From assembly GCA_003151955.1 (NCBI GenBank), contig PLZB01000024.1, forward strand, positions 1 through 64,000: a stretch of 64,000 bases of DNA, given 5' to 3'. The notes under the pieces were generated by a model. That model was not told the origin of the DNA and made no database searches. It worked only from the letters and a program-made list of their open reading frames with translations. The position numbers and the translations under genes were made by a program. This stretch comes from Acidimicrobiaceae bacterium. GTDB lineage: Bacteria > Actinomycetota > Acidimicrobiia > Acidimicrobiales > UBA8190. Positions 25,871-51,885 of this stretch are shown piece after piece. The stretch's first letter is position 1, and each line of letters opens with the position of its first letter.

Positions 25871-25998
25871 GCCGTCGACACGATAGGACCCCGCTGTGTC
25901 GGGGGCCTCCCGATCACCAGGGTCGGCGAAGGTCTTTGGACCCTTCTCCCCCCTCCGACTCCTCCCTACCCTGGCAGAAGCCCTCCAGGAGGCAACCG

Positions 25999-27198: not shown

Positions 27199-27303
27199 AC
27201 TTCGCCGTAGTCCCGGCACCACCTCCACTGTCCCGCCGGCCATCCCCCGGCTTCCTCGGCACTTCGGCGCTCTCCCGGAACCCTCCCCGGCGGAAAGGCC
27301 ACG

Positions 27304-32700: not shown

Positions 32701-35700
32701 CCGGCTCGGACGCCACCGCCACCTTCACGCTCGACAACGCCCATCTGGCCGCGTCGGTCACCCTCACCGTCCCGACCGGCATCCTGACCGGCACAGTGCT
32801 CACCGCCGGCGGCGGTCCGGCCGGCGGGGTGCCCGTGACCGTGGCCGACGGCTCCCGCCCGATCGCCGGGACCCAGACCGCGGCCGACGGCACCTACAGC
32901 TTCACGGTGACCGCCGCGGGCTCGCTGGACGTGGTCGTCACCGACCCGACCGTCGGGATCCTCATCGACTCGGCCGTGTCCGTCGTCACCGGGGCCACCA
33001 CGACCGCGCCCACCCTCCAGGGCGGGAGCTCGACGTTGGCGGTGACAGTTAACGACGGCGGTGGGGTCGTGACCGGCGCCTTCGTCAGTGTGACCTCGGG
33101 ATCGGTCGCCGACCAGCCGGCGTCCGTGGCCACGGTGACCGACGCCTCGGGCTCGGCCTCCTTCGCCTCGCTCGTTCCCGGCACCTACCAGCTCAAAGTG
33201 GCTCACGGCAGCGACGCCACCTCCGCCACCACCGTGGTCGTGGCCGCCGGAGCCAACACCAGCCCCGTGGCGCTGAGCGCGGGCGGGTCGGTTGCCGGGA
33301 CGGTGTCCGGCGCCAGCGGGCCCGTGACCGGTGCCCAGGTCGTGGCCGTGGGCTCCGTCGGGTCGATGACCGGTCAGGCGACGACAGCAGCCGACGGCAC
33401 CTACAGCATCGCGGGGCTGGCCCCCGACACCTACCAGCTCTCGGTCAGTGACGGCAAGGACGCCCCCGCCATCGTCAGCGGGGTGGCGGTCACCGCCGGG
33501 ACGGGCACCGTCGAGAACGTCACCCTGTCCCCGACCGGGACCGACCTCACGGTGACCGAGCAGGCCGCCCAGCCGGGAGGCCCGCTTCCGGGCGCCGCCG
33601 TCATGGTCGTCGACGCCAGCGGCACACCGGTCCTGCCCGCCATCGTGGGCCCGGCGGTCCTGGCCGGCGACCCGACCGACTCCACCGTGCTCGGCCCGCT
33701 CTCGCCCGGTCACTACACAGTGGAACTGGTCGGCACAGGAACGAGCACGAACAGCCTGCCCGTGACGATCGGCGGGAGCCCTGCCTCGTTGACGCTGATA
33801 GCACCGGCCGGGGAGGTCCTCCCCGATCAGTCCATCCCGCCGTCCCCGGCGCTGCGCCCGGCGGCCCAGCCGTCCTCGTCGAACCCCTTCGCGCTGCTCC
33901 AGCCCAACGCATCCTCCCCGACCCAGGCACTGCCCTCATGGACCGACGTGCTCAGTGCCTGGATCGCCGGGCTGGACAGTCCCACCACCCACCAGCCCGT
34001 CATGGACCAGGTGACGGCGCTCTACAACGAGGTGATCGCCAACCTCGTCGGCCAGTGCGGGGCCAACTCCGGGCCCCTCATCGCCCAACTCGGCCACGAG
34101 CTCATCGTCGTCCAGCGGGCCTACGGGGCCATCGACACCGCCTACAAAGCCTTCAACCAGAACCGGTACGCCGGGCTGGCGCTCTCGGCCTTCAATGTGG
34201 TGGCGTTGGTCGGCCACATTCTCGACATCCTGCTCTCGGGCGCCGCGCCCATCAAGGCGGCCGTGCTCAGCCTCAACAGCGAGTCCACATTCGTCATCCA
34301 GCTTCAGCTCCTCAACAACGTGGACGCCGGCACCGAGGACGCCATCAAGGCTCTGGACATCGCCAACCTGGTGACCACCGTGGGCATCATCGGTCAGAGC
34401 ATCTCGGAGGGGCCGGAAGACGGATCGTCGAACTTCGACAACATCGTGAGGATCATCGGCATCCTGAACGACGGCCTGAAGGCGATCCAGGCCGTGGCGG
34501 CGTTCGGCTCCGCCATCCCCGGCTTGTCCGCCCTGGCCGCTGGCATCGCCGCCGTCAAGGAGCTGGTCTCGCTGTTCGAGAACCTCAAGATCGCCTACGA
34601 CGCCGCCGTCCAGGACATCGACAACTACAACACGGCCCAGACCAACTTCCTCACGCTGGCGACGGCCATGATCGCCCACCTCAACTCCGTCAATCAGAGC
34701 ATCAGCACCACGGGCTGCCCGCCGCCGCCGCCACCGCCCTATCCGCCGCCGCCGCCCGGACCCGTCCAGCCCCCGGCCCAGTTCCAGAACAACCTGGGCA
34801 AGGACCCGAACGGCATCGACGGCCCCCCGGGCGTCGGGGTCCCGCGGTTCGTGGCCGGCCGGACCGGGCTCGGCTATGTCATCCACTTCCAGAACGAGCC
34901 CACGGCCAGCGCCTCGGTGGCCGAGGTCACCGTCACCGAGCCGGTGCCGGCCGATGTCGACCCGGCCTCGGTCCAGCTCACCGGGTTCGGGTACGGCTCG
35001 ACCGTGATCTTCGTCCCCCCCGGCCTCCAGACCTTCTCCGAGACCATCCCCGACTCGGCCCCCAACGGGAACGGCGACAGCGTCACCGTGACCGGCGCCT
35101 ACGACCGGGCCACGTCGACCATCACCTGGACCCTGTCGGCGATCAACCCGGCCACCGGCGACGTCGACGCCGCCGCCACCGGCGGGTTCCTGCCGCCCGA
35201 CAACACCGACCGGACCGGTGAGGGGTTCGTCTCCTACTCGGGCACCCTCCAACCCGGCCTGGCCTCCGGCACCACCGTGACCGACCAGGCCACCATCACC
35301 TTCGACCGCAACGCCCCCATCGACACCCCGGCCTGGACCAACACGGTGGACGCCACGGCACCCACGGCGACGGTGACGGCCCTCCCCCCGACCACCCGGG
35401 CCGGGAGCCTGCCGGTCTCCTGGACCGGCTCGGACGGGGCGGGGTCGGGGGCAGAGACCTTCGACGTCTACGTCTCGGTCGACGGCGGTCCCTTGACGGT
35501 GTGGCAACACGACACGACCGCGACCTCGGCCAGCTATCCCACCATCGCCGACTCGAGCTACGGCTTCGCGGCGGTGGCCACCGACCAGGTCGGCAACGCC
35601 GGCCCGGTCCCCACCGCCCCCCAGACCACCACCCGGGCCCTCCTCCTCTTCCGGCAGGCCCCGGCCGGCTACTGGCTGGCCGGCGCCGACGGCGGGGTCT

Positions 35701-36179
35701 ACGCCTTCGGCGACGCCGGCTTCCACGGATCGATGGGCGGCCACCCCCTCAACGCCCCCGTCATCGCCATGACCACCACCCCCGACGGCGGCGGCTACTG
35801 GCTCCTCGGCGCCGACGGCGCCGTCTACGCCTTCGGGGACGCCGGCTTCCAGGGCTCCATGGGCGGCCACCCCCTCAACGCCCCCGTCATCGCCATGACC
35901 ACCACCCCCGACGGCAGGGGCTACTGGCTCCTCGGCGCCGACGGCGCCGTCTACGCCTACGGCGACGCCACCTTCCAGGGGTCCATGGGCGGTCACCAAC
36001 TCGCCGCCCGGGTGGTGGCCGTGCTCACCACCGGCACCGGGAACGGCTACTGGCTCGTCGGCGCCGACGGCGCCGTCTACGCCTTCGGGGACGCCACCTT
36101 CCAAGGCTCCATGGGAGGAACCCACCTCAGCGGCCCCATCGTGACCGCCACCACCGGAGCGGCCCGCCCCCCGGTCTGA
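29775..36179 (+). CDS. Giant surface protein, C-terminal part after frame break
   Basis: If translated alone it would start at the GTG overlapping the upstream stop (GTGA), but the protein domain begins before that point, so continuation of the upstream frame is likelier. About 2,134 residues. In order: end of the beta-helix region; CARDB-like beta-sandwich (VPGEQITGSFSVTNTGADPATG); PPC-like and Ig-like segments; at least six carboxypeptidase-regulatory-like units (LTGTVTRSDTSAPVSGATVTA, ADGTYIIDGL); a helical block with hydrophobic stretches (DNA about 33900-34700); a Pro-rich linker; a DUF11-like conserved-repeat region; an Ig-like domain; and four C-terminal units of GYWLLGADGAVYAFGDA...GSMGG (35662-36150). 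It is probably an exported adhesin-like or matrix protein. Confidence 0.85.
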   Translation: MSAHVTTGTFAAVTGQIAGGGVAYSVDYAATTDFGTPGATLDVVSASVLQSLSAGSVTLPTPSTPVPGEQITGSFSVTNTGADPATGSWQNSIYLGTGTTYQPGDTLLQRIPHTGPLAPGASYTVPVSASLPFVPAGSYHLIAVPDSTDVVAAAHNDQQAASASFTVADIPTLTPGTPVTTPIRQGGDLYYRLVVPTTSDVRVSVTLPAGSTATLYAARGSLATPLNTQQQSTFMSTAPSVTLPQSSPGTWFLDLSSAEIGPGSTATIDPELAGLAVTGVTPGTASNTGPVTLTVTGSGLVDVVYHLVSVASHETIGDIGSTRQSSTTVFPTFPLAGAPPGSYDLVVGVDVPNGQQVTFPNAVTVTAGTVAGQLEISTTGGGNLRYGWISPMSVTLSNTGGADVAIPELTVAGVDGEVIPALGLYCNPLTLGDCSVIPGTGGFRPSITLFDPAATPIPGEAPFPAGILPPGRSETFQFGVISSTTTDGAPITVNTTVVNSTDPTPIDWPTLLDTGQPPGLTTAQWNSVVALIERYYGTTEGQYAAALVPLIRQAQGYGVTLSDDNSILAFIIDQTIVESGSPFASVFDSTTNAPLARTPVTFTSTTNSAPAVETTTWYDGTFSFLGGLPDGTYDVSVGGHLPRTQQVTILHGALEGLRVVVTDGARLTGTVTRSDTSAPVSGATVTATDADGPVSANTAADGTYIIDGLDTGAATVTVIADLLAGPPPMPVVVSAAAPTTQDLSMSPAGEITGQITETPAGSPAVLATAVGGGAQTVGDVAPGGSFVIGGLPTGSYQVTATDSGLGAATSPPVSVTVGSVTSGVDLTLDPPATITGTVTDAVTGQPIVGATVTSLAPGGPPAAVTNASGTYSLAGAPGASQTIETAAPGSTTLDETVSPASGATLTHDFVLSPKGSLSASVLDGGGAPLANQDLVLAAPSPAGGAQSVGAQHLTTDAAGAADLTGLDFGTYVLSVPGSDATATFTLDNAHLAASVTLTVPTGILTGTVLTAGGGPAGGVPVTVADGSRPIAGTQTAADGTYSFTVTAAGSLDVVVTDPTVGILIDSAVSVVTGATTTAPTLQGGSSTLAVTVNDGGGVVTGAFVSVTSGSVADQPASVATVTDASGSASFASLVPGTYQLKVAHGSDATSATTVVVAAGANTSPVALSAGGSVAGTVSGASGPVTGAQVVAVGSVGSMTGQATTAADGTYSIAGLAPDTYQLSVSDGKDAPAIVSGVAVTAGTGTVENVTLSPTGTDLTVTEQAAQPGGPLPGAAVMVVDASGTPVLPAIVGPAVLAGDPTDSTVLGPLSPGHYTVELVGTGTSTNSLPVTIGGSPASLTLIAPAGEVLPDQSIPPSPALRPAAQPSSSNPFALLQPNASSPTQALPSWTDVLSAWIAGLDSPTTHQPVMDQVTALYNEVIANLVGQCGANSGPLIAQLGHELIVVQRAYGAIDTAYKAFNQNRYAGLALSAFNVVALVGHILDILLSGAAPIKAAVLSLNSESTFVIQLQLLNNVDAGTEDAIKALDIANLVTTVGIIGQSISEGPEDGSSNFDNIVRIIGILNDGLKAIQAVAAFGSAIPGLSALAAGIAAVKELVSLFENLKIAYDAAVQDIDNYNTAQTNFLTLATAMIAHLNSVNQSISTTGCPPPPPPPYPPPPPGPVQPPAQFQNNLGKDPNGIDGPPGVGVPRFVAGRTGLGYVIHFQNEPTASASVAEVTVTEPVPADVDPASVQLTGFGYGSTVIFVPPGLQTFSETIPDSAPNGNGDSVTVTGAYDRATSTITWTLSAINPATGDVDAAATGGFLPPDNTDRTGEGFVSYSGTLQPGLASGTTVTDQATITFDRNAPIDTPAWTNTVDATAPTATVTALPPTTRAGSLPVSWTGSDGAGSGAETFDVYVSVDGGPLTVWQHDTTATSASYPTIADSSYGFAAVATDQVGNAGPVPTAPQTTTRALLLFRQAPAGYWLAGADGGVYAFGDAGFHGSMGGHPLNAPVIAMTTTPDGGGYWLLGADGAVYAFGDAGFQGSMGGHPLNAPVIAMTTTPDGRGYWLLGADGAVYAYGDATFQGSMGGHQLAARVVAVLTTGTGNGYWLVGADGAVYAFGDATFQGSMGGTHLSGPIVTATTGAARPPV
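35662..36150 (+). repeat. Four tandem units of 126 bp
   Basis: These encode GYWL(A/L/V)GADG(G/A)VYAFGDA.F.GSMGG.. units, a variant of the repeats at 14261-14994 and 51895-52640 with ADGAVYAF in place of SDGGIFAF. Units two and three are almost identical at the DNA level, indicating recent duplication. Confidence 0.88.
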
Positions 36180-36227: not shown

Positions 36228-36602
36228 ATGACAATGCCGGCTCCGGTCAAGCTCCGGTCCGCGGCGGATGCGGTGTACGGACCCCTCGTTGCTCTCGACC
36301 GTGCCTTGACTGCCGTCGGGAACAACACCACTGCATCGCTCCTCGGGGTCAGCAAGTCCCAGCCCGGCCGGTGGCGGAGCCGGCAAGAGCAGATGTCCGC
36401 CGTGAACGCGTCGGCGATCGTGGCACTCGACGCGTTCTTGAGCCTCGTCCTGCAGGTCTTCACCCGGGAGCAGGCCACGCTGTGGCTCGTCGGCTCGGAG
36501 CCCTTCCTGGGCGGAGCCAGGCCGGTCGACGTGTTCCGGCTCCGGGGCCTGGCCGGGGTCCTCCCCGCGCTCCAGGCCGTCGAGCAGGGTGCCTTCGCCT
36601 GA
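36228..36602 (+). CDS. Xre/MbcA/ParS-type antitoxin of a RES module
   Basis: This encodes 124 residues. The N-terminal half holds a helix-turn-helix-like segment (NNTTASLLGVSKSQPGRWRSRQEQM); the C-terminal half has the toxin-binding pattern of Xre-MbcA-ParS antitoxins (ALDAFLSLVLQVFTREQATLWLVGSEPFLGGARPVDVFRLRGLAGVLPALQAVEQGAFA), whose tail normally plugs the toxin active site. The ATG lies in TGTCATGACA, a 10-bp palindrome that could serve autoregulation. The RES toxin gene starts two bases after the stop. The chromosomal arrangement antitoxin-then-toxin is standard for this family. Confidence 0.88.
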   Translation: MTMPAPVKLRSAADAVYGPLVALDRALTAVGNNTTASLLGVSKSQPGRWRSRQEQMSAVNASAIVALDAFLSLVLQVFTREQATLWLVGSEPFLGGARPVDVFRLRGLAGVLPALQAVEQGAFA

Positions 36603-36604
36603 CC

Positions 36605-37171
36605 GTGGCCGTCTTCTGGCGGGTGATCACCTGGAGTCCCGACGCCCCTTCGGGAGTCAACGGTCATCCGCTGTTCATCTGGCCCTGGCAGGGCCAGAGC
36701 CGGATCGACGACCCCCAGGGTGAGTACCAGGTCCTGTACGTCGGCGACTGCCCCGAGGTGGCCGTGGCAGAAGCGCTCGGACGGTTCCAGACCTGGAGCT
36801 CAGTTGTCCTCGATCCGGCGCCGGCGGCGCCGGCGGGGTCGGTCCGAGCACTTGTGGCCTACGAAGGCGAGCCGGTGCTCTGCGATCTGGACGATCCGCA
36901 TCAGCTCGGGGTGTTGGGACTCCGGCCCTCCCGGGTCGTCACCCGCAAGAGAGCGGTCACCCAGGCCGGGGCTCGAGCCGTCTACGACACCAGGGCCATC
37001 GCCAATCCGAAGGTCGACGGGATCAGCTGGTGGTCCTCCTACGACCCGGACTGGGCGTCGATCGGGTTGTGGCGACCGGAGGCCCTGACGGTGGTCGATG
37101 TCGAGCCGTTGACCGTGGACCTGCCGGCCACGGTGCGGGCGGCCGAGGTCCTCCTCCGGCTCATCGAGTAG
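36605..37171 (+). CDS. RES-domain toxin (NAD+-degrading, MbcT-like)
   Basis: This encodes 188 residues from the GTG at 36605. RES toxins deplete NAD+ (MbcT is an NAD+ phosphorylase). Residues expected in the active site are visible: Arg6 in VFWRV, Tyr45 in VLYVGDC and Glu56 in VAVAEALGRF. The later SWWSSYDPDWASIGLW segment supplies the usual Ser/Trp motif. No frameshift or stop interrupts it, so the pair with the upstream antitoxin looks intact, unlike the toxin-antitoxin remnants that follow. Confidence 0.9.
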   Translation: MAVFWRVITWSPDAPSGVNGHPLFIWPWQGQSRIDDPQGEYQVLYVGDCPEVAVAEALGRFQTWSSVVLDPAPAAPAGSVRALVAYEGEPVLCDLDDPHQLGVLGLRPSRVVTRKRAVTQAGARAVYDTRAIANPKVDGISWWSSYDPDWASIGLWRPEALTVVDVEPLTVDLPATVRAAEVLLRLIE

Positions 37172-37330: not shown

Positions 37331-37731
37331 GTCCCCAACGAGCTCTTCGAGATCGCCGCAGGTCAGAACGGATACATCACGAGCCGCGATGTCCGGCAGG
37401 CAGGGGGGTCGGTCCAGGTGTTGACGGACATGCACCGACACGGCCAGCTCGACCACGTGACTCAGGGGGTCTACCGCTTTCGTGCGTTTCCCCCGAACCG
37501 GCTCGACGAAGTTCATGCAGGCGACGCTGTGGCCGCGTGGCCTCGGCATCATTTCGCACGACTCGGCCCTCGATCTGTGGGAGCTCTGCGATGTGAACCC
37601 GGCCAGGATCCACCTGAGGGGTGCCGAGGGCGGCGAGGATCCGTCGGGCGGTGCCAGCGCTCCCTCGACGGGTATGAGCGTCATGTCACCGCCGACGAGT
37701 TCGCAGGGAAGACGGTAACCGGCTGAGGACG
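37331..37731 (+). pseudogene. Decayed AbiEi-type antitoxin
   Basis: PNELFEIAAGQNGYITSRDV followed by RQAGGSVQVLTDMHRHGQL and VYRFRAFPPNRLDE (37334-37511) matches the N-terminal winged helix of AbiEi antitoxins. The homology then moves to the next frame (LWPRGLGIISHDSALDLWELCDVNPARIHL, about 37526-37616), then to a third (VPRAARIRRAVPALPRR), then back to the first (YERHVTADEFAGKTVTG). At least three frameshifts therefore interrupt it, and the start codon position reads GTC. A TTGCACTATATATT stretch at about 37308-37321 may be the old promoter. Confidence 0.7.
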
Positions 37732-39437: not shown

Positions 39438-39466
39438 TTGACAAGGAGGCCGACCCCGTCTATTCC
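39438..39466 (+). promoter_or_regulatory. Probable promoter of the giant two-gene operon
   Basis: TTGACA at 39438-39443 and TATTCC at 39461-39466 are separated by exactly 17 bp, 48 bp upstream of the ATG at 39514. The -35 box is a perfect consensus; the -10 box is weaker. GGAGGAAG before the ATG is a good ribosome-binding site. Confidence 0.55.
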
Positions 39467-39513
39467 TACCCGGGGCGGGTCCACCGTCTTCGTCGACCGG
39501 AGGAAGAACGGCC

Positions 39514-42500
39514 ATGGACCGAGCATCCGCCCTGTCCCGGCTGACCGCCCTCACGGCCGGCCACATCACGGCCACCGTGGTCGGGGGGAGCGCCGTCCCG
39601 GCCCTGTCGAGAACCCTGACGGCCGGCGAGCTGGCCGACCTCGGCCCCCTCCTGGAGCGGACCCCGGCCCCGGGCGGCCCGGGAGCCCCGACCCCCCAGG
39701 CCGTCCTTCGGACCCTCCCGACGCTGGCCCTGGGGAACCCGGTCCTGACCCCGGCGGCGACGAGGGGGATGCTCCCGGAAACGGAGGGGCCCATCCTCGA
39801 CGAGCTGGGGAATCCCCACTGGATCGACCTCTTTCCCCCGGTGGTCGAGACGGCCGTGAGTCGGGCCCCGGGGACGATCCCCTTCCTGGTCCTCCCCCTG
39901 GCCCTCGGGAGCGGGCCGGTCCCGGCCACGGTCGAGATCGGGGCGGGGAGCCTTTGGATCGAGGCTGGTCTCCTGGCCCCGGGGAGCCCGGCGGGGGGCT
40001 TCGCCGGGTTGGCCATCAGCGGGGGGACCCTGACGGCGTCGACGGCCCCGACCCAGACCCCGGGCGGGGGACTCGCCGTGGCGGCGGGGACGACGCTCAC
40101 CCTGACGGTGACCCCGTCGGGCTCGACCGGTCCGGTCGGGGGCGGCGATCCCGGGGCCGACGGGGGGGCCGTGGTGGCCGACCTCCCGGGGCAGGTCACC
40201 TTCGTCCTCGGTCCCGGAGGGGGCGGGATCAGCGCCGCCGGGCCGGCCGCCCTCACCGTCTACGGGACGAGGGTCGGCCTCAGCTGGGAGGGGGCCGCCC
40301 CGATCTACGAGGCCGTCATGGGGAGCATCGTCGTCCCCCTCACCCCGGACAGGGCCGACTTCACCCCGACGACGGTCCTGTCGACCCTCCTGTCGGTCAC
40401 CGGGACGGCGCCCATCGGGCTCGGGGGCTGGTCCCTCCCGGTGGCGGTGACGGCACCGGCCCTGCTGGGGACGGCCTCGACGGGAGGGCTCCTCGGCCTC
40501 GGCCTCGACCGCGGGCTGGAGATCAGCTGGGCCGGAGTGACGGGGGGGCCGGCCACGCTCCGGTCGGTGTTCCTGGCCGCCACGGGGGGTGTCGTGAGCC
40601 TCCTGGGCTCCCTCGGGGGGCCGAACCGGTTCGGGGCCGTGGTCGATCTCTGGAGCGACGGGCCGGCCCCGTCGACGGTCCGGAGCAGCCTGGAGCTGAC
40701 CTTCGCCGAGGGGGAGCTCGTCTACTACACGAGCGTGGCCGCCCTCGGGCCGGTCGACCACGTCGAGCTCCTCACCTGCGGGGCCGTCGTGGCCGCCCAC
40801 ATCGACCGGCCGGTGGCCGCCGACGGGGGCCGGCTGGGGCCGACCCTCCCGGGGATCCTGGCCGTCTTCGAGACGGCCACCGAGCAGGGGGTCGTCGTCA
40901 TGGGGATCGCCCCCAAGACGACCCCCCCGCCGTCGCCGATGGCCCTGGCGCTGCGCAACGCCCTCCTGGTGACGACGCCTCCGGAGCTGCTCCTGGTCCG
41001 GGGCCGGTTCTCGGTCACCCCGGCCGAGCTCGACTCCGGGGTCCTCCTCCTCGCCTTCGGCCTCGACACCCTCCTCCCCACCCTCCCTGACCCGTACGCC
41101 GCCAACTTCCTGCCCCTCCGGCCCATGGTCAGCCCCCGGGACCCTGCCCTCGGCAACGCCGCCGTTGGGGCCCCCGGACCGGGCCCGGGGCCGCCGTCGG
41201 TCCTCCTGGCCGCCGTCCGGTGGACGCCGTCGCAGGCCAGGCTGGCCTTTCTCGACCTGGCCGGCCTCCGGGGCCGGGTCCTCGTCGACCCCCTGGCCCG
41301 CCGGGGCGCCACCGCCCTCATGCTCCTCGACGTCTCGAGCAACATCGACCAGCTCGGGGTGGCGATGGACCTGGTCCAGACGGGCCGGGTCATCGACACC
41401 CTGGCCCCGCCGGCCGCCCCGGGGGCCGGGGGCCTGGCCATCGTCGGTCTCGACCTGGTGGCCCCCTGCCTCGACCTCCGGGTCTTCACCGTCCCGGCCG
41501 TCTCCTGGGAGCCGGTCGTCACCGTCCAGAACCCGCTCGTCGCGCCCGATCCGTTCCCGTCGCCGGCCGGGTTCCTCGACGACGGCGGACCCTCGGTGTT
41601 GGGGGCGTCCGACGTCACGCTGGTCCCCGTGGCGCCCGGGCCGCTCCTCGACCGGGTCCTCAGCGCCTACGCCGGGGGGGCGGCCGGGGAGGCCAGGTTC
41701 ACGCTGCCCTTCGGGATGGTGGCCACCGCTGCGCTGCCGGCCTCGTCGGCCGGTCCGGCCGGGTCCCGCCCCCGGCTGGTCGAGGTCCAGCCGGAATTCG
41801 CCGGCCGGGACATGGCCGGGGGCCGCCAGGTCAGCATCAGGGCCGGGGGGTCGGGGGGCCCGGGTGGGGTCAGCCCGAGCCTCCCCGGGGAAACGGTCCA
41901 GCTCCGGAACCTGGTCCAGGGGGATGGGACGCCGGCCATGGACCCCCGGCCGGGTGGGGACCAGCTGAGCGTCCTCGGCCCCGACGTGGACACCATCTTC
42001 AACGGGGACTTCGGTCCAGGTGGGCACCAGCCCCTGGTGCCGGTGAGCCGCTACGACCTGTCCGGATACGGGGCCTCGGCCGTGAGCGCCTGGGTCGATC
42101 CGACGGCCGACCCCCCGGCCGTGGTGCAGGCCACCTTCAACGTCCTGGTGGGCCGGACCAGCCGGGAGGTGGTGCAGGTCAAGAGCATCCTCTACCCCTG
42201 GGGGGCCATCGTCGTCCGGACCATCACCATCGACCGGCAGGACGACAGCGAGGTCCACCGCTACGACAGCGGCTGGGTGGCGGCCACCCCCGGGGTGTTC
42301 GCCACGGCCGGGATCACCGTCCACCCCGGGGCCGTCACGGGAGCCTTCAACCTCCGGGAGATCGCCGACACCTCCCAGACGTGGACGACGGGGGGGCCGG
42401 GGGGGCCGGTCCTGGTCGGGGTGGTCTTCGACGCCGACATCCGGATCGAGGGGGTCGTGAGCGGGGCCCGGGGGGGACTGGTCCCGAGCACGGGTCAGCT

Positions 42501-44145
42501 CGGGTTCGTCCAGACGGCCCCGGTGGGGACGCCGGTCACCCCGGCGGAGCTGGCCCTCCTCCTCGACCACGAGGGCCCCCTGGGGGGGCCGGTGGACTGC
42601 GTGGTCTCGGTGGGGAGGACGGCCCAGACCATGCGGGTCTCCCGGGTCGAGGTCGGGAACGCCCCCCATACCGGGGCGAGCCCCTCCCAGGAGTTCGCCG
42701 CGACGGCCCGGGGGAGCGTGGTCCTCCCCCAGCCGGGGTCCTGGAGCGTCCTGTCCCGGACCGACGACACGGGCGAGCCGACCCCGATCGACCCCCAGAA
42801 GGGGGTGGCCCTCATCCGGCAGGGGCCGGCCGGGACCGGGTCGACGGAGCCGTGGCGGCTGGCCGAGCCGGTCGATCTCTGGGTGCCGGCCAGCCCGTCG
42901 ATGGACTTCTGTCTCCTCCACGCCACCGACTCCACCCGGATCCTCTTCCCCCGGCCCGTGGTCGAGGACGGGGCCGCCGCCGTCACGAGCGACGTCGTCC
43001 CCCTGCTGGCCGACGGGATGGCCCTGACGGCGGCCACCTCGGTCTGCCCCCGCCAGGACAGCCTCCTGGGCTTCCCCGACGCCTCGTACTCCCTGGACAT
43101 CAGCGGGGCCGGGGCCTTCACCCTGGCCGGGGTCCCGGTCCCGTTCCCGCCCACCATCCCGGAGCGGTCCCTGGCCACGGCCACGGCCGGGACCATCGCC
43201 TTCGAGTACGCCGACGTCAACGGGAATCCGGCCGAGGTCTCGGTCTCGATCACCCCCGACGACTGGTCCATCGGGGTGGCCGGGGTGAACGTCCGGCTCG
43301 ACATGGGACCCTTCGGCGGGCTCATGCGGACCTACGGGGACCTGAACGGGTCGAAGGCAGGGGGGATCGGCTACCAGAACCCGAACCTGGTCCTGGGCTC
43401 GGTCCTGTCCCCGCTCCAGGACCTCATGGGGTTCCTGAAGGACCTGGGCCTCCCCATTCCGATGGCGATGGCCTTCTCGAACTCGGGGGTGATGAACAGC
43501 CCGAAGATCAAGATGAACGCCGGGATCCAGTTCAGCCTGCCCAACGACACCCTGTTCCCGTTCCTGACCCCCCTGCTGGACACCCCGTTGGGAAAGCTGG
43601 AGATCGCCGTCAAGGCCAACGTCGGGAACATGGCCTCCTCCTACGCCGCCCTCCTGGGGTCGTCGTCGCAGTGGATCTTCGGGTTCACCTTCTCGGGATC
43701 GATCCAGGTCGCCATCATCCCCTCCATCCCGGTGAAGGCCGGGGGGATGGTGGCCTTCGGGTTGCAGCTGGCCTTCCCGGCCGGGAAGCTGCCCCAGTCG
43801 GAGACGTTCAGCTTCGAGGCCGGGGTGATCATCACCATCGGGGGGAACCTGGTCCCCGGGGTCCTCCAGCTCGAGGCCTCCATCGCCTTCGCCTTCAAGC
43901 TGGTCATCGTGGTCACGGGATCGACGTCAGTGTCGATGGGGGTGGCCCTGATCTTCACGGCCAAGGGGATGGTCCTGGGCGGGCTGATCGGGATCACCTT
44001 CACAGCCGAGGCCGACGGGATGATCACGGTGACCTCCCCCCAGGCCGTCCAGGCCACCTTCTCCGTCTCGGTCGACATCTGCGTCTGCTGGTTCATCAAC
44101 ATCCCCTTCAGCACCTCGGTCCAGTACACCAAGCAGCTCACCTAA
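39514..44145 (+). CDS. Giant uncharacterised protein A (1,543 residues)
   Basis: The ATG has GGAGGAAG upstream. No signal peptide or clear transmembrane helix is seen at the start (MDRASALSRLTALTAGHITATVVGG). The sequence is almost wholly beta-strand-like with short Gly/Pro loops, few Cys and few Lys. Recognisable stretches: SILYPWGAIVVRTITIDRQ near residue 895, SPSMDFCLLHATDSTRILFPRP near 1130, and a C-terminal 300 residues of long amphipathic hydrophobic strands (IFGFTFSGSIQVAIIPSIPV, AFAFKLVIVVTGSTSVSMGV, MVLGGLIGITFTAEADG) ending SVDICVCWFINIPFSTSVQYTKQLT. I do not recognise a family. The tail could be an oligomer-forming or membrane-inserting beta structure (speculation). The next gene follows after 11 bp. 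Confidence 0.85.
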   Translation: MDRASALSRLTALTAGHITATVVGGSAVPALSRTLTAGELADLGPLLERTPAPGGPGAPTPQAVLRTLPTLALGNPVLTPAATRGMLPETEGPILDELGNPHWIDLFPPVVETAVSRAPGTIPFLVLPLALGSGPVPATVEIGAGSLWIEAGLLAPGSPAGGFAGLAISGGTLTASTAPTQTPGGGLAVAAGTTLTLTVTPSGSTGPVGGGDPGADGGAVVADLPGQVTFVLGPGGGGISAAGPAALTVYGTRVGLSWEGAAPIYEAVMGSIVVPLTPDRADFTPTTVLSTLLSVTGTAPIGLGGWSLPVAVTAPALLGTASTGGLLGLGLDRGLEISWAGVTGGPATLRSVFLAATGGVVSLLGSLGGPNRFGAVVDLWSDGPAPSTVRSSLELTFAEGELVYYTSVAALGPVDHVELLTCGAVVAAHIDRPVAADGGRLGPTLPGILAVFETATEQGVVVMGIAPKTTPPPSPMALALRNALLVTTPPELLLVRGRFSVTPAELDSGVLLLAFGLDTLLPTLPDPYAANFLPLRPMVSPRDPALGNAAVGAPGPGPGPPSVLLAAVRWTPSQARLAFLDLAGLRGRVLVDPLARRGATALMLLDVSSNIDQLGVAMDLVQTGRVIDTLAPPAAPGAGGLAIVGLDLVAPCLDLRVFTVPAVSWEPVVTVQNPLVAPDPFPSPAGFLDDGGPSVLGASDVTLVPVAPGPLLDRVLSAYAGGAAGEARFTLPFGMVATAALPASSAGPAGSRPRLVEVQPEFAGRDMAGGRQVSIRAGGSGGPGGVSPSLPGETVQLRNLVQGDGTPAMDPRPGGDQLSVLGPDVDTIFNGDFGPGGHQPLVPVSRYDLSGYGASAVSAWVDPTADPPAVVQATFNVLVGRTSREVVQVKSILYPWGAIVVRTITIDRQDDSEVHRYDSGWVAATPGVFATAGITVHPGAVTGAFNLREIADTSQTWTTGGPGGPVLVGVVFDADIRIEGVVSGARGGLVPSTGQLGFVQTAPVGTPVTPAELALLLDHEGPLGGPVDCVVSVGRTAQTMRVSRVEVGNAPHTGASPSQEFAATARGSVVLPQPGSWSVLSRTDDTGEPTPIDPQKGVALIRQGPAGTGSTEPWRLAEPVDLWVPASPSMDFCLLHATDSTRILFPRPVVEDGAAAVTSDVVPLLADGMALTAATSVCPRQDSLLGFPDASYSLDISGAGAFTLAGVPVPFPPTIPERSLATATAGTIAFEYADVNGNPAEVSVSITPDDWSIGVAGVNVRLDMGPFGGLMRTYGDLNGSKAGGIGYQNPNLVLGSVLSPLQDLMGFLKDLGLPIPMAMAFSNSGVMNSPKIKMNAGIQFSLPNDTLFPFLTPLLDTPLGKLEIAVKANVGNMASSYAALLGSSSQWIFGFTFSGSIQVAIIPSIPVKAGGMVAFGLQLAFPAGKLPQSETFSFEAGVIITIGGNLVPGVLQLEASIAFAFKLVIVVTGSTSVSMGVALIFTAKGMVLGGLIGITFTAEADGMITVTSPQAVQATFSVSVDICVCWFINIPFSTSVQYTKQLT

Positions 44146-44156
44146 GCGAGGCATCC

Positions 44157-47100
44157 GTGGCCACCACCCCGACGTTCGAGCTGAGCCTGCTGGCCTTCCC
44201 CCAGTCCTGGGACGGGAGCCGGATCGGGCTCCGGATCCTGGTCCTGCCCCAGGGGGACCCCCTGGCCCCGTTGCTGACGGGCCTGTCCCCGACGCCGGAC
44301 TCGCCCGCCTTCGCCGACGCCGGGCCCCGGTTCGTGGCCGAGCTGATCCCGTCGCTGGCGGCCCTGCCGGCCCCGGCCGCGGTCACGGCCACGGTCCCCC
44401 TGGTGACGGCCCCGGTGACGGGGGCCCGGGCCCTGTTCGAGGCGCTGGCCGGCCAGTTCTCCATCGCCCCGGACCCGGCCGGGGAAACCCCCCGGCGGGT
44501 GGGGTACAGCACGAGGAAGTTCCTCCCGGAGAGCTACCGGAGCGCCTTCGCCTTCGACCGGCCGTCGACCCCGTTCGCGGTCACGGACGACTCATACCAG
44601 TGCATGCTGGAGAACCCGGCCGTCACCACCGTCCAGCCGCCGCCGCCGTCCACGGTGAGCTGGGGCCGGGTCATCGGCTTCGCCCTCCGCCAGCCGCTGC
44701 TGGCCCTCGGCCTGGGCCTCCTCTACGAGACGACGGTCACCCTCCCCGACCCCGCCTACTTCGCCGCCGGGGGCTGGCTGTCGGTGGGGCTGGACCCGGG
44801 GAGCGACTTCTCGGCCCAGGTGGCCGTCAAGCCGGGCCTCCTCCAGCCCTACGGGGCCCGGATCCCGGCCCTGTCGACCCCCAGGAGCCTGTACGCCGCG
44901 GTCCTCTTCCCGGTCCTGGCCGGGCCCCCGGCCGGGTCCTACGACGGGGTGGTGGTGGAGGCGGAGGACTACGACGACGGGTTCGTGAAGATCGTCCACG
45001 GGATGCAGCCCGACCGGGCCTCGGTGGTGGAGGCCCCGGCCGGCGGGCTACCCCCGACGGCGGACTTCGGGCTGCGGCTGGGCTGGGACGACGAGCAGGT
45101 GACGGCCTGGTTCAACCGGCAGGTCGACGCCGGGGCCGTGGACGCCCCCTTCGGGACGGCCGGCTACCGGGTCGACGTCCGGTCGACGGGGTCGACGGCC
45201 TGGCACTCGCTCACGGCCGTGACGGGGGCCCTGGCCCTGGGTTCGACGGCGCTCGGGACGTTCACGGGGGAGCTCAGCGTGGAGACGGTGCCGGTCAACC
45301 ACGACCCGGGGCAGCCCGAGGCGTGGTGGCTGCCGAGCTACTTCACGGAGTGGAGGGGGGGCTCGATGGTGGTGTCGGACCCGGTGGCCCAGGAGCTCCA
45401 CGGGGACCCGACCCCGGGGTCGGGCCAGCAGTACAGCGCCGTCGTCGACGCCGCCGTGACGCTCCTGTACGGGTCGAGCTACGACTTCCGGGTCCGGATG
45501 GTCGACCTGAGCCGGGGTGGGCCGGCCCTCACCGACTCGGCCGTGAACCCGGGCCCGGCGCCGGTGGCGACGCTGCCCTTCCGGCGGCTGGTGCCGTTCC
45601 GGCCGGTGACGGTCACGAACCTCGACCAGGGGGCCAGCCCGGCGGCCCCGCAGACGACCTACCGGATCGCCCGGCCGCTGCTGAATTACCCGTCGGCGGT
45701 GTTCGCCGGGATCCCGGGGGCGGTGGCGGCCCTCCAGGCCGACCTGCCGGTGGCGGCGGCGGCGGGCCGGGAGGCGGGGCTCCCCGATCCGGACTGCGCC
45801 CAGGTCTCCATCGAGGTCCAGGTGCGGCAGCTCGGGAACGACGCCGCCACCTTCGTCGCCGACGGGGACCACTCGAGCTACGGGCTTCTCTACTCGACGA
45901 CCCGGGACTTCCCGGCCGACCCGTCGGCGGTGCTCGAGCTCGACATCTCCTTCGTGGACGTCCCCGACGTCTGGACGTTCCCACCCCAACCCACCAGCGG
46001 GGCCCTGGTGGTGCCCCAGGCCCGGGACATCCGGCTCGTGTTGCGGGCCGGGGCGGCCGCCGATCCGGAGCTCCTGTACTGGGGGTCGACGGAGGCCATG
46101 GTGGGGGCGCCGATCGAGATCGTGACGGGAGCGGAAGGGGTCGACGAGCGGGGGCTCTTCGCCCCGGACACCGCCGCCGACCGGATCCGGGGGATCATGC
46201 TCCAGCCCGACCCGGTGGCCACGGGGAATTCGGTGGCGGTGTCAGCCCTGCTGGGCCAGAGCGGGACGACGGCGTTCGATGTGGCCGGGCGCCTGGCCCA
46301 GGCGCTGTCGCTGTCGGTGTCGGCCCTGAGCTACTCGGGGCAGTCGGGGGAGCGGGTGGTCTTCGGGTGCTCGTCGGCCCTCCGGCACACGCTGTCCCCG
46401 GAGCACGGGACCTTGACGCTGGCGGCCCGGACGGAGCTGACGGGGCACTGGCTGGTGGTGGTGACGCTCCGGCTGGCCCGGGACTGGAGCTGGGGCGGGC
46501 TGGGGGCAACCAGCTTCGAGGTGGGCAACGGGGCCGGGACGGTGGTGGGGACGATCGATCTCCCCGACGCCATCAGCCTGACCGCCCTGGAGGATCCGGA
46601 CCGGAGCGGGACGACCCTGGTCTTCCTCGACGCCGTCGACCCCAAGCCGGCGGCGGGGTCGCTCCCGGCCGAGCTGGACCTGACCTACACGGTGACGCCG
46701 GTGCTGTCGTCGCCGGCGGTCCTGGAGGACCCGCCGGTGGTGCTCCCGGTGGTCCTCCCGGTGGCGGCCCGGCCCCTGCAGACCCCGGTACTGGCCTCGG
46801 CCGGGATCGCCCTGTCGCCGTACAGCCCGGCGGGGGACTACTCGGCCACGACACCTCGGCAGCGGGCCCTGTGGCTGGAGTTCGCCGAGCCCCTCGACGA
46901 CCCGGAGGACGGCTACTTCTGCCGGGTCCTCTCCTACGCCCCGGACCAGCTCCTGACGGGGGCCCCCTTCGCCGACCCGGGGGGGATCGATGTCCCGCCG
47001 GAACCTCCGCTGGCCATCGACCCGGAGCTGATCCGGACGGTCGTCCCGGGGCAGTCGGACGACCTGGCCGGGCTCGGGGCCATGCAGCCCCTGGTGGCCT

Positions 47101-47711
47101 CGAGCTCGCCGGTCCACTTCATGGTGCCCCTGCCGCCGGGGATGGCGGTCGATGCCCCCGAGCTGTTCGGCCTGTTCGTGTACGAGCTCCGGGTCGGCCA
47201 CGCCAAGCTGTGGTCGACGGCCCAGGGGCGGTTCGGGCCGGCGCTGCGGGTGGCCGGGGTCCAGCACCCGGCGCCGGTGCTCCTGAACGTGGTGAGCAGC
47301 CAGCCGGAGCGGTTCAGCGTCACCGCCGCCCACGCCATGCCGGTGTTCAACGGCCGGGACCTGACGCCGGCGGTCCCCCGGACGGGACTCTGGGCGCTGC
47401 TCTACGCCCAGGTGACCCAGGCCGACGGGAAGTCGCAGCGGAACGTCCTCCTGGACCGGCGGCGGCTGATCCGGCTGGGCGCCCACCTGGGCAGCCACGG
47501 GAAGCCGAAACTGCCGTTCACCCTATGGGCCCGGGCTGACGTCGAGGTCCTCCTCGACCACCTGGGGCTGTCCCCGGGGTCCCCGCTGAGCGTGCTGGTG
47601 GTGGAGACCCTGCCCGAGTTGGGCCAGCTCGAGGATCCCCTGGGCGGGGACCTGGGAGCCGTCCGCATCCTGCGGACCTCGCCTCTGACGGCCCTTCCCG
47701 CGGTGTGCTGA
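44157..47711 (+). CDS. Giant uncharacterised protein B (1,184 residues)
   Basis: It starts at the GTG at 44157, 11 bp after protein A, with only GCGAGG as a ribosome-binding site, so translation is probably coupled. The sequence opens ATTPTFELSLLAFPQSWDGSRIGLRILVLPQGDPLAP and continues RVGYSTRKFLPESYRSAFAFDRPSTPFAVTDDSYQCML. It is again beta-rich, soluble-looking and without a signal peptide. Later blocks: VEVQVRQLGNDAATFVADGD, GIMLQPDPVATGNSVAVSALLGQSGTTAFDVAGRL, FCRVLSYAPDQLLT, and a C-terminal LWARADVEVLLDHLGLSPGSPLSVLVVETLPELG. The orderly FxxRLVPFRPVTVTN and GLFVYELRVGHAKLW motifs suggest an assembled structure or binding scaffold. No family or catalytic motif is recognised. Confidence 0.85.
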   Translation: MATTPTFELSLLAFPQSWDGSRIGLRILVLPQGDPLAPLLTGLSPTPDSPAFADAGPRFVAELIPSLAALPAPAAVTATVPLVTAPVTGARALFEALAGQFSIAPDPAGETPRRVGYSTRKFLPESYRSAFAFDRPSTPFAVTDDSYQCMLENPAVTTVQPPPPSTVSWGRVIGFALRQPLLALGLGLLYETTVTLPDPAYFAAGGWLSVGLDPGSDFSAQVAVKPGLLQPYGARIPALSTPRSLYAAVLFPVLAGPPAGSYDGVVVEAEDYDDGFVKIVHGMQPDRASVVEAPAGGLPPTADFGLRLGWDDEQVTAWFNRQVDAGAVDAPFGTAGYRVDVRSTGSTAWHSLTAVTGALALGSTALGTFTGELSVETVPVNHDPGQPEAWWLPSYFTEWRGGSMVVSDPVAQELHGDPTPGSGQQYSAVVDAAVTLLYGSSYDFRVRMVDLSRGGPALTDSAVNPGPAPVATLPFRRLVPFRPVTVTNLDQGASPAAPQTTYRIARPLLNYPSAVFAGIPGAVAALQADLPVAAAAGREAGLPDPDCAQVSIEVQVRQLGNDAATFVADGDHSSYGLLYSTTRDFPADPSAVLELDISFVDVPDVWTFPPQPTSGALVVPQARDIRLVLRAGAAADPELLYWGSTEAMVGAPIEIVTGAEGVDERGLFAPDTAADRIRGIMLQPDPVATGNSVAVSALLGQSGTTAFDVAGRLAQALSLSVSALSYSGQSGERVVFGCSSALRHTLSPEHGTLTLAARTELTGHWLVVVTLRLARDWSWGGLGATSFEVGNGAGTVVGTIDLPDAISLTALEDPDRSGTTLVFLDAVDPKPAAGSLPAELDLTYTVTPVLSSPAVLEDPPVVLPVVLPVAARPLQTPVLASAGIALSPYSPAGDYSATTPRQRALWLEFAEPLDDPEDGYFCRVLSYAPDQLLTGAPFADPGGIDVPPEPPLAIDPELIRTVVPGQSDDLAGLGAMQPLVASSSPVHFMVPLPPGMAVDAPELFGLFVYELRVGHAKLWSTAQGRFGPALRVAGVQHPAPVLLNVVSSQPERFSVTAAHAMPVFNGRDLTPAVPRTGLWALLYAQVTQADGKSQRNVLLDRRRLIRLGAHLGSHGKPKLPFTLWARADVEVLLDHLGLSPGSPLSVLVVETLPELGQLEDPLGGDLGAVRILRTSPLTALPAVC

Positions 47712-49314: not shown

Positions 49315-49403
49315 TCGGCTGAACCCTCTTGGCTGAGGTCCCGGCGGGCCGGACGCGTGGGACCGGGCCCCTCCGGGGGCGCCCTCCCATAGAGTTCGGT
49401 GCG

Positions 49404-50315
49404 ATGGACGCCACGACAGACCGTCTGATGCGGATGGCGGCGTTCACGTGGCTCGACGATCTCCGGAGGCAACACGGCGAGGTCATGCCCCGCACCGCCC
49501 TCCAGGAGGGATTCGACTTCCAGGGGGGCCGGGTCCGGGTGTTGGGACCGCAGGGGATCTTCATCCCCCAGGGTGGAACGGTCCCCCTGTCGATCACGAC
49601 GGCTCCGGAGAAGACGGGGAAGCCCCGGCCCTACGACGACCAGGTCGGCCCGGACGGGCTCCTCCGCTACAGGTACCGGGGCCAGGACGTCCAGCACCGG
49701 GAGAATGTCGGCCTACGGACGGCGATGGCGGAGCGGATCCCGTTGATCTACCTCTGGGGCATCGGTACGGGCCGGTACTTCCCGGTGTGGCCGGCCTTCG
49801 TCGAGGCCGACGATCCCGGGATGTTGACGTTCACGATCGGCTTCGACGCCGAGCAGGCGATGTTCGGAGAGCTGCCCCTCGCCATCGGCGGTGAGGCGCG
49901 GCGGGCGTACATCACCCAGGAGCGGCTGGTCAGGGTGCATCAGGCCCAGTTCCGGCAGAAGGTCCTGGTGGCCTACCGGTCCGCCTGCGGGATCTGCAAC
50001 CTCCGGCACACGGAGTTGCTCGACGCTGCCCACATCCTCCCCGACGGGCACCCCAGGGGCGAGCCCATCGTTCCCAACGGCCTCTCCCTGTGCAAGATCC
50101 ACCATGCGGCCTTCGACCGGAACATCATCGGGATCCGACCCGACCTGGTCCTCGAGGTCCGGTCCGACATCCTCGAGGAGGTGGACGGCCCCATGCTCCG
50201 GTACGGGCTCCAGGCCTTCGACAAGCAGACCCTGCATGCGCCGAAGCGGGACGCCGACCAGCCCCGGGTCGAGTTCCTCGAGGAACGGTTCCAGGAGTTC
50301 CGGGACGCGGGCTGA
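49404..50315 (+). CDS. HNH restriction-type endonuclease
   Basis: This encodes 303 residues from the ATG at 49404. Residues 1-165 form an N-terminal recognition-type domain (PQGIFIPQGGTVPLSITTAPEKTGKPRPYDDQ, LLRYRYRGQDVQHRENVGLRTAMAERIPLIYLWGIGTGRYFPVWPAFV), similar to that found before HNH domains in modification-dependent or ScoMcrA-like nucleases. The HNH nuclease occupies about 190-245: CGIC at 195-198, LLDAAHI with His210, NGLSLC with Asn225 and Cys230, and IHHAAFDRN. A complete beta-beta-alpha metal site is present. It is likely a restriction enzyme acting on incoming DNA; whether it needs modified bases cannot be told. There is no companion methyltransferase. Confidence 0.88.
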   Translation: MDATTDRLMRMAAFTWLDDLRRQHGEVMPRTALQEGFDFQGGRVRVLGPQGIFIPQGGTVPLSITTAPEKTGKPRPYDDQVGPDGLLRYRYRGQDVQHRENVGLRTAMAERIPLIYLWGIGTGRYFPVWPAFVEADDPGMLTFTIGFDAEQAMFGELPLAIGGEARRAYITQERLVRVHQAQFRQKVLVAYRSACGICNLRHTELLDAAHILPDGHPRGEPIVPNGLSLCKIHHAAFDRNIIGIRPDLVLEVRSDILEEVDGPMLRYGLQAFDKQTLHAPKRDADQPRVEFLEERFQEFRDAG

Positions 50316-50319
50316 GCCG

Positions 50320-50817
50320 TCAACCACCTGAAGGTAGGGATCGGGACTCGCCGGGTGCCGCCGCCTCGGCCCGAAGGCAACCCAGGAGCCGGGCGAAGAC
50401 CGCTCCCAGGGTGACGAGCTCCCGGTCGGAGAGGAGGTCGAAGAAGAGGCGGTGGGTGGCCTCGGCGTGGCCCGGGGCGGCCTCCGCGATGGCGGTCCGG
50501 CCGGCGTGGGTGAGGCGGACCATGGATCCCCGGCCGTCCTCGGAGCACTCCTGCCGGGCGACGAGGCCCCGCTTCTCCATCCGGGAGACCTGATGGGAGA
50601 GGCGGCTGCGGTCCCAGCCGATCTCGGTGCAGAGCTCCCGGGCCCGGAGGAGCCCCTCGGGAGAGGCGGACAGGGGCACGAGGACGGTGTAGTCGGCGGC
50701 GGAGAGGCCGGCTTCGAGGAGCTGGGCCTCGAGGGTGGCGTAGAGCTCCCGGTTGAGGGCCAGGTAGTCCTGCCAGACCTCGGCCTGGCGGTCGTCGAGC
50801 CATCGGGGCTGGGCCAC
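50320..50817 (-). CDS. MarR-family transcriptional regulator
   Basis: This encodes 165 residues with the MarR winged helix: YTVLVPLSASPEGLLRARELCTEIGWDRSRLSHQVSRMEKRGLVARQECSEDGRGSMVRLTHAGRTAI (about residues 43-110), flanked by dimerisation helices. It is divergent from the pirin gene; the 96-bp gap holds a promoter overlapped by a palindrome, so it probably represses pirin and itself and is released by a small phenolic or oxidative signal, as usual for MarR. It converges on the HNH gene with a 4-bp gap and no visible terminator. Confidence 0.92.
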   Translation of the reverse strand: MAQPRWLDDRQAEVWQDYLALNRELYATLEAQLLEAGLSAADYTVLVPLSASPEGLLRARELCTEIGWDRSRLSHQVSRMEKRGLVARQECSEDGRGSMVRLTHAGRTAIAEAAPGHAEATHRLFFDLLSDRELVTLGAVFARLLGCLRAEAAAPGESRSLPSGG

Positions 50818-50833
50818 AGTCTCCAGCCTACCC

Positions 50834-50868
50834 TGTTTGTTGACGTATCCTCAAACAAGGGATATTGT
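50834..50868 (+). promoter_or_regulatory. Pirin promoter with overlapping MarR operator
   Basis: TTGACG (50840-50845) and TATTGT (50863-50868) are spaced by 17 bp. TGTTTG (50834-50839) and CAAACA (50852-50857) form a perfect inverted repeat with a 12-bp spacer that covers the -35 box. AT-rich DNA in this GC-rich setting and position between marR and pirin support the reading. Confidence 0.65.
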
Positions 50869-50913
50869 AGACGTGTCACCAAAAGAGGGGTGACGCGAGA
50901 GGAAGGGATCGCC

Positions 50914-51885
50914 ATGCCGGCCATCACCGTCGAGGACACCCTGGTCCTGCCCCGGATCCCCCGCCCGGACACCGCCGTGTCCCGGGCCCGCCCCGTCCAG
51001 CGGGTCGTCACCGCCCACCAGCAGACGGAAGGTGCCGGCTTCGCCATCCGGCGGCCCTTCCCCGGGGAGCTCTCCATGGCCCAGGCCGACCCCTTCCTCC
51101 TCCTCGACCAGTTGGGGCCCCAGCTCACGGCCCCCGACGAGGCCAAGGGGGCACCCTGGCATCCCCACCGGGGCTTCGAGACGGTCAGCTACATCCTGGA
51201 TGGGGAGATCGCCCACCACGACACCAACGGCGGTGGCGGCGTGATCGGCGAGGGGGACACCCAGTGGATGACGGCGGGCGGCGGGATCCTCCACGACGAG
51301 CTGCCCACGGAGCGGATGTACCGGGCCGGGGGCCCGTCCCACGGGGTCCAGCTCTGGGTGAACCTTCCATCCCACCTGAAGATGACACCACCCCGGTACC
51401 AGTCGATCACCCGGGACGACCTCCGGCTGCTCAGCTCGGACGACGGAGGCGCCCTGGTCCGGCTCATCGCCGGCGGCATGGCCGGGTTCAGCGGGCCGGG
51501 GGTCACCCACACCCCGATCACCTACGCCCACGCCACCCTGGCCCCCGGGGCCCGGCTGTCGGTCCCCTGGACCCCGGCCTACAGCGCCTTCGCCTACGTC
51601 CTGACCGGCCAGGGCACCGTCGGCACCGGGGACCGCCCACTGCAGCAGGGCCAGCTCGTGGTCTTCGGCCCCGGCGACCATCTGGAGGTGACAGCGGCCG
51701 ACCACACCGCCGAGCCCCTCGACGTCCTCCTCCTGGGCGGCCTCCCCATCGGGGAGCCCATCGCCCACTACGGGCCCTTCGTCATGAACAGCCGCCAGGA
51801 GATCCTCCAGGCCGTGGAGGACTACCAGGCCGGCCGGCTCGGGATCATCCCCGCCGACCAGCTCGCCCCGAGGAGCTTCGCCTGA
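50914..51885 (+). CDS. Pirin-family bicupin protein
   Basis: This encodes 323 residues from an ATG preceded by GAGAGGAAGGG. Metal ligands fit the pirin pattern: His83 and His85 in WHPHRGFETV, and His127 and Glu129 in GGGILHDELPTE. A second cupin follows (LAPGARLSVPW, LTGQGTVGTGDRPLQQGQLVVFGPGD, GLPIGEPIAHYGPFVMNSRQEI). Bacterial pirins act as quercetinase-type dioxygenases or as redox-sensing partners; which one is not decided by sequence. It is paired divergently with a MarR regulator, suggesting induction by an aromatic or oxidative signal. It ends three bases before the convergent giant surface gene. Confidence 0.93.
   Translation: MPAITVEDTLVLPRIPRPDTAVSRARPVQRVVTAHQQTEGAGFAIRRPFPGELSMAQADPFLLLDQLGPQLTAPDEAKGAPWHPHRGFETVSYILDGEIAHHDTNGGGGVIGEGDTQWMTAGGGILHDELPTERMYRAGGPSHGVQLWVNLPSHLKMTPPRYQSITRDDLRLLSSDDGGALVRLIAGGMAGFSGPGVTHTPITYAHATLAPGARLSVPWTPAYSAFAYVLTGQGTVGTGDRPLQQGQLVVFGPGDHLEVTAADHTAEPLDVLLLGGLPIGEPIAHYGPFVMNSRQEILQAVEDYQAGRLGIIPADQLAPRSFA

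Follow-up and report, generated by a model that had tools for sequence, protein, structure and literature searches.

Two giant beta-rich proteins, one with a predicted porin-like barrel, form an undescribed two-gene system in at least nine bacterial phyla

Outer-membrane barrels such as CymA, OmpG, the EspP translocator and TamA consist of long antiparallel amphipathic strands, and long runs of such strands also occur in the lipid grooves of TamB and AsmA and in large lipid transfer proteins of the ApoB type. We analyzed a 64,000-nt stretch of DNA from an Acidimicrobiaceae bacterium (assembly GCA_003151955.1, contig PLZB01000024.1, positions 1 to 64,000; hereafter the window), where two adjoining genes, A and B, encode giant proteins that share features with these proteins, with Ig/FN3 multidomain proteins, and with Tc-type toxins and extracellular contractile injection systems (eCIS). 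The genes and protein regions compared are as follows.

39514..44145, + strand: gene A, 1,543 aa, ATG start; a beta-rich giant with a barrel-like C-terminal domain (open reading frame (ORF) and translation, homologues, third-position GC content (GC3) 0.96)
44157..47711, + strand: gene B, 1,184 aa, GTG start; a multidomain beta protein and A's obligate partner (translation, homologues, conservation, model predicted local distance difference test score (pLDDT) 86.8)
42040..42276, + strand: A residues 843-921, its best-conserved core, RxDxSGYGAS ... DSGW (conservation across 59 A proteins)
43432..44142, + strand: A residues 1307-1543, predicted porin-like amphipathic beta-barrel (AlphaFold2 model, VIA Z 15.7 to CymA, face alternation in 71/71 homologues)
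47280..47708, + strand: B residues 1042-1184, Ig/FN3-like C-terminal domain with a conserved ILRTSPLTxxPxxC tail (VIA Z up to 6.9, a generic level; tail conservation)

In predicted fold, A's residues 1307-1543 resemble the outer-membrane barrels, the strands being long, antiparallel and amphipathic (VIA Z 12.6-15.7), but A has no clear signal peptide, occurs in carriers that lack Omp85, shares only about 6% identity with these barrels and has no Pfam match; its barrel also ends a protein of 1,500-1,900 aa with an obligate partner. The strand run is shared with TamB, AsmA and ApoB-type proteins, and TamB's alternation density is similar, but the run in A spans only about 240-300 residues, has no Pfam match and carries a polar face nearer to that of membrane barrels. 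For B, the model shows Ig/FN3 matches in its C-terminal half, although generic ones (Z under 7), with neither a sequence match nor an export signal. Tc-type toxins are also large proteins without signal peptides, patchily distributed among similar environmental taxa. The same holds for eCIS (PMC8213781). In contrast to both, the A-B pair has no adjoining eCIS core gene, no within-family association with eCIS and no Pfam domain of either kind.

An earlier reading of the window from its letters alone (the original prediction) had described two genes of 1,543 and 1,184 residues, 11 bp apart, and ORFs and translations confirmed these positions and sizes. Both genes lie on the + strand with a GC3 of 0.96-0.97, and both start codons, including B's GTG, are backed by homologue alignments. 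By a crude hydropathy check and reading of the N-termini, no clear signal peptide was present on A or B, either in the window or in homologues, as had been claimed.

We characterized the pair's occurrence across genomes. Searching plasmids with tblastn located A and B together in Candidatus Chlorohelix (Chloroflexota), Microvirga terrae and Tistrella mobilis, whereas Microvirga sp. VF16 has only a remnant of B (L004, 18053-19087). A single-protein scan of genome contigs found no homologue. A profile built from four B proteins matched 208 loci in the GTDB set, and 80 of these were retained. An A gene longer than 1,200 aa lies directly upstream of B in 72 of the 83 loci with a near-complete B; the remaining 11 are near contig ends or have a broken A, and 10 of these 11 still show A. 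A is thus directly upstream of B in 82/83 loci, the exception being L046, whose contig starts inside B. Applied to 196 unselected Chitinophagaceae genomes, the A profile detected 12 genes distributed over 11 of them, all 12 adjoining B, and the one further substantial B match was a fragment at a contig start. The divergences of A and B are correlated (r = 0.92 over 73 pairs, matched by 0/1000 permutations), a value to which common species history adds. The data strongly support a single undescribed protein system of which A and B are the obligate parts: the proposal of a two-gene system of giant beta-rich proteins is upheld by obligate adjacency across phyla and by correlated divergence, and the outcome named as its refutation, an A lacking its neighbour B in other genomes, was not encountered among intact loci. 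Among the carriers, the Chitinophagaceae genome G501 has two A-B pairs, divergent from each other, one on contig C4 and one on C12. Broken copies occur in Tistrella (L003, 13276-17975) and in a Solibacter metagenome-assembled genome (MAG; L010, 3-4419), where the A coding sequence is divided over different reading frames.

The carriers belong to at least nine phyla (Bacteroidota, Pseudomonadota, Acidobacteriota, Actinomycetota, Chlorobiota, Cyanobacteriota, Ignavibacteriota, Thermodesulfobacteriota and Chloroflexota), and most of those found are diderms. Among 99 genomes around the window's own, from the same family and order, B was found only in the window's genome, and among 246 sampled Bacteroidia it was found in three, one of them being the genome on which the sample was centred. 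The nearest B relatives occur, fully supported, in a Rhodanobacter (66% identity) and in a MAG from an alphaproteobacterium, indicating that the pair crosses wide taxonomic distances. The pair is patchy and has moved between phyla. A phage-borne element was considered and rejected, as the viral contigs and phage records searched yielded none. Both genes are under purifying selection (dN/dS about 0.03-0.16 in close pairs with unsaturated dS), and conserved residues are spread along the full length of both proteins. The last 240 residues of A have a lower dN than the rest of A in 6/6 close diderm pairs; between the window and L007, their dN is not below the rest.

We searched the window's proteins singly, homologue sets of 25 A and 30 B proteins, and profiles against known families. 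There was no credible match in Pfam or NCBIfam for the window's proteins or the homologue sets, including no Tc-type toxin domain in either library and, among the 25 A proteins at E 0.1, no Pfam lipid-transfer-type family. PADLOC was negative for A and B except for one chance-level match, PHROGs was negative apart from isolated chance-level matches, PDB sequences held no credible relative, and no homology between A and B themselves was detected. The pair is not described in the literature searched (open-access only, with exact-word matching) and is undescribed in every library searched. The original prediction, which had called the proteins uncharacterised and named homology to a characterised family as its refutation, therefore stands on this point, as no such homology was found. 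A pair of about 2,700-3,300 residues that spans these phyla under purifying selection is absent from Pfam, NCBIfam, PHROGs and PADLOC and lacks a sequence relative in the PDB. What is new is the family and the way its features combine; barrel and Ig/FN3 folds as such are already known, and no new fold is claimed for A residues 1-1306 or B residues 1-660.

The original prediction had also noted amphipathic strands at A's C-terminus, which proved real; B and the remainder of A carry such strands far more sparsely. We modelled A residues 344-1543 with AlphaFold2 using 56 alignment rows (mean pLDDT 79.6), and the last ~240 residues were modelled as long antiparallel strands whose faces alternate strongly. 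In VIA comparisons, this part matched CymA (Z 15.7 over 211 residues, rmsd 4.3), OmpG (Z 13.6), EspP (13.3) and TamA (12.6), and a BFVD search with A returned barrel-like matches only. Using a model-free measure across 71 homologues, windows with membrane-barrel-like alternation covered 0.73 of the last 240 residues compared to 0.35 of the rest of A, with a higher density in the last 240 residues in 71/71 homologues. As controls, the outer-membrane barrels OmpG, TamA, FadL and OmpF scored 0.59, 0.42, 0.41 and 0.36 and two soluble enzymes about 0.3, so that the test has limited sensitivity, OmpF being no higher than the enzymes. The polar face of A's barrel part is rich in small residues and poor in charge, nearer to TamA and OmpG than to the TamB groove, which leans toward the barrel reading; its hydrophobic face scores 2.9, compared to about 2.2 in control membrane barrels. 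Taken from the model, A's last ~237 residues are predicted to fold as a single-chain porin-like amphipathic beta-barrel. If this barrel is real, a porin-like domain is carried by proteins without export signals, even in bacteria without an outer membrane, raising the questions of what keeps the barrel soluble, by which route it gets out of the cell and what membrane or lipid it encounters.

The AlphaFold2 model of B has a predicted template modelling score (pTM) of 0.60, and its C-terminal half matches Ig/FN3 chains. The earlier statement that the proteins contain no known motif accordingly holds for their sequences, but not for the B model, which ends in these generic domains. B's last residue, Cys1184 (47706-47708), is conserved nearly throughout its homologues, and the tail often ends CC..C in Bacteroidota.

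Several mechanisms could give such a protein pair a function, and A's barrel-like C-terminus points to membranes or lipids rather than to a shell or scaffold. Acting as an ordinary outer-membrane protein is unlikely because A shows no clear signal peptide and Omp85 was found neither in the window's genome, which is 94.7% complete, nor in the Nonomuraea and Streptomyces carriers; it is present in three diderm carriers. This leaves a cytoplasmic protein in contact with a membrane once released, with an internal membrane, or with lipid. When the pore-forming and lipid-binding accounts are taken together, it is likely that A and B act on membranes or lipids. The best single mechanism, which we favour tentatively, is a released pore-former. 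Under this mechanism, A and B would be made and assembled in the cytoplasm, as the missing signal peptide and the hosts without an outer membrane suggest, and B or the bulk of A would hold the barrel soluble. The complex would exit by cell lysis or another non-Sec route, B's domains would mediate contact, and the barrel would enter and perforate a membrane other than the producer's outer membrane, possibly serving against competitors or grazers. A would then plausibly be a giant cytoplasmic protein without a signal peptide that carries a complete single-chain porin-like barrel, and a dedicated partner would help this barrel into foreign or internal membranes, in monoderms and diderms alike. 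Weighing against the released pore-former are the modest pLDDT of A's last ~240 residues (about 50-76); the TamB lipid groove, which is also amphipathic with an alternation of 0.64, so that the alternation pattern shows a lipid-compatible sheet and not specifically a membrane barrel; the absence of any immunity, lysis or secretion gene adjacent to the pair; and the standing of pore activity, toxicity, release route and target as predictions.

The same strands could instead serve inside the cell, where they would form a barrel or groove holding lipids or other hydrophobic ligands, or a coat on stored lipid, with B completing the particle. The alternation of the TamB groove, the appearance of ApoB100 among A's weak Foldseek matches, the lack of both a signal peptide and a nearby secretion gene, and the stable retention of the pair in Algoriphagus are all consistent with this intracellular complex. 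However, the ApoB TM-scores are near 0.1, closed membrane barrels give the top fold matches, the polar face carries less charge than a water-exposed face should, and no lipid-metabolism gene recurs beside the pair, which leaves it a somewhat doubtful account. A soluble structural assembly, such as a scaffold, shell or particle in which A's C-terminal strands pack on B or on each other away from any membrane, is unlikely: two large partners with conserved residues all along them, the Ig/FN3-like domains that make up part of B and the missing signal peptide agree with it, but a face as hydrophobic as A's would be hard to bury in a large soluble barrel without a ligand, and the fold matches are porin-like. 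If A instead left the cytoplasm by an unusual route to become an outer-membrane or cell-surface protein, its resemblance to porins and autotransporter translocators and the predominance of diderm carriers would be explained. This is improbable, considering the missing signal peptide, the carriers without Omp85 and the C-terminus of A, which ends in RQIA or KQL; the usual beta-signal of outer-membrane barrels has a terminal aromatic residue.

The original prediction had suggested an injection-like particle and possibly a defence system, for which it named conserved adjacency with defence genes as support, and we find a defence system or eCIS accessory very improbable. The eCIS marker Pvc16_N was found in 14/33 carriers searched, and counted by organism it is present in 12/15 Bacteroidota carriers compared to 33/246 Bacteroidia. 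Geller et al. reported eCIS in 89% of Chitinophaga and 69% of Algoriphagus (PMC8213781), rates that can explain this raw excess. Within Chitinophagaceae, the excess vanishes (eCIS in 4/11 complete carriers compared to about 50/185 others), and no eCIS core gene lies beside the pair; the eCIS link was rejected, and the injection-like particle is not supported. Toxin-antitoxin (TA) remnants and an HNH protein near the pair in the window would fit a defence operon, but no neighbour is shared outside Algoriphagus, where the conservation is genus-level synteny only, and PADLOC was negative. An anti-phage defence operon was likewise rejected, and conserved adjacency to defence genes did not hold, as the RES, AbiEi and HNH genes near the pair are a local feature of this window.

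Upstream of A, the original prediction had read a consensus-like promoter, and was half right. Its TTGACA is a perfect -35 match, but its TATTCC matches only 3/6 positions of the -10, and a promoter scan called no promoter. The prediction of TA remnants on one side of the pair and an HNH nuclease on the other was borne out by RES and AbiEi upstream and HNH_2 downstream. These expression signals and neighbouring genes are:

39438..39466, + strand: possible promoter, TTGACA (39438-39443), 17 bp, TATTCC (39461-39466), read from the sequence, weak -10
39499..39506, + strand: Shine-Dalgarno-like GGAGGAAG, 7 bp 5′ of A's ATG, read from the sequence, a good match
36602-37171, + strand: RES-domain toxin-like protein (E 7e-10), upstream of the pair
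37346-37726, + strand: AbiEi_4 antitoxin-like piece that looks broken (E 4.5e-6), upstream of the pair
49329-50315, + strand: HNH_2 endonuclease-domain protein, downstream of the pair
50452-51885, + strand: pirin-family protein, downstream of the pair

At a greater distance, the pair is flanked by two giant ORFs (27054-36179, + strand, 3,041 aa; 51889-63978, - strand, 4,029 aa) with CarboxypepD_reg, CARDB and Ig-like domains, which look surface- or adhesin-like. A radical SAM/SPASM protein (25936-27198, + strand) directly precedes the 3,041-aa ORF.
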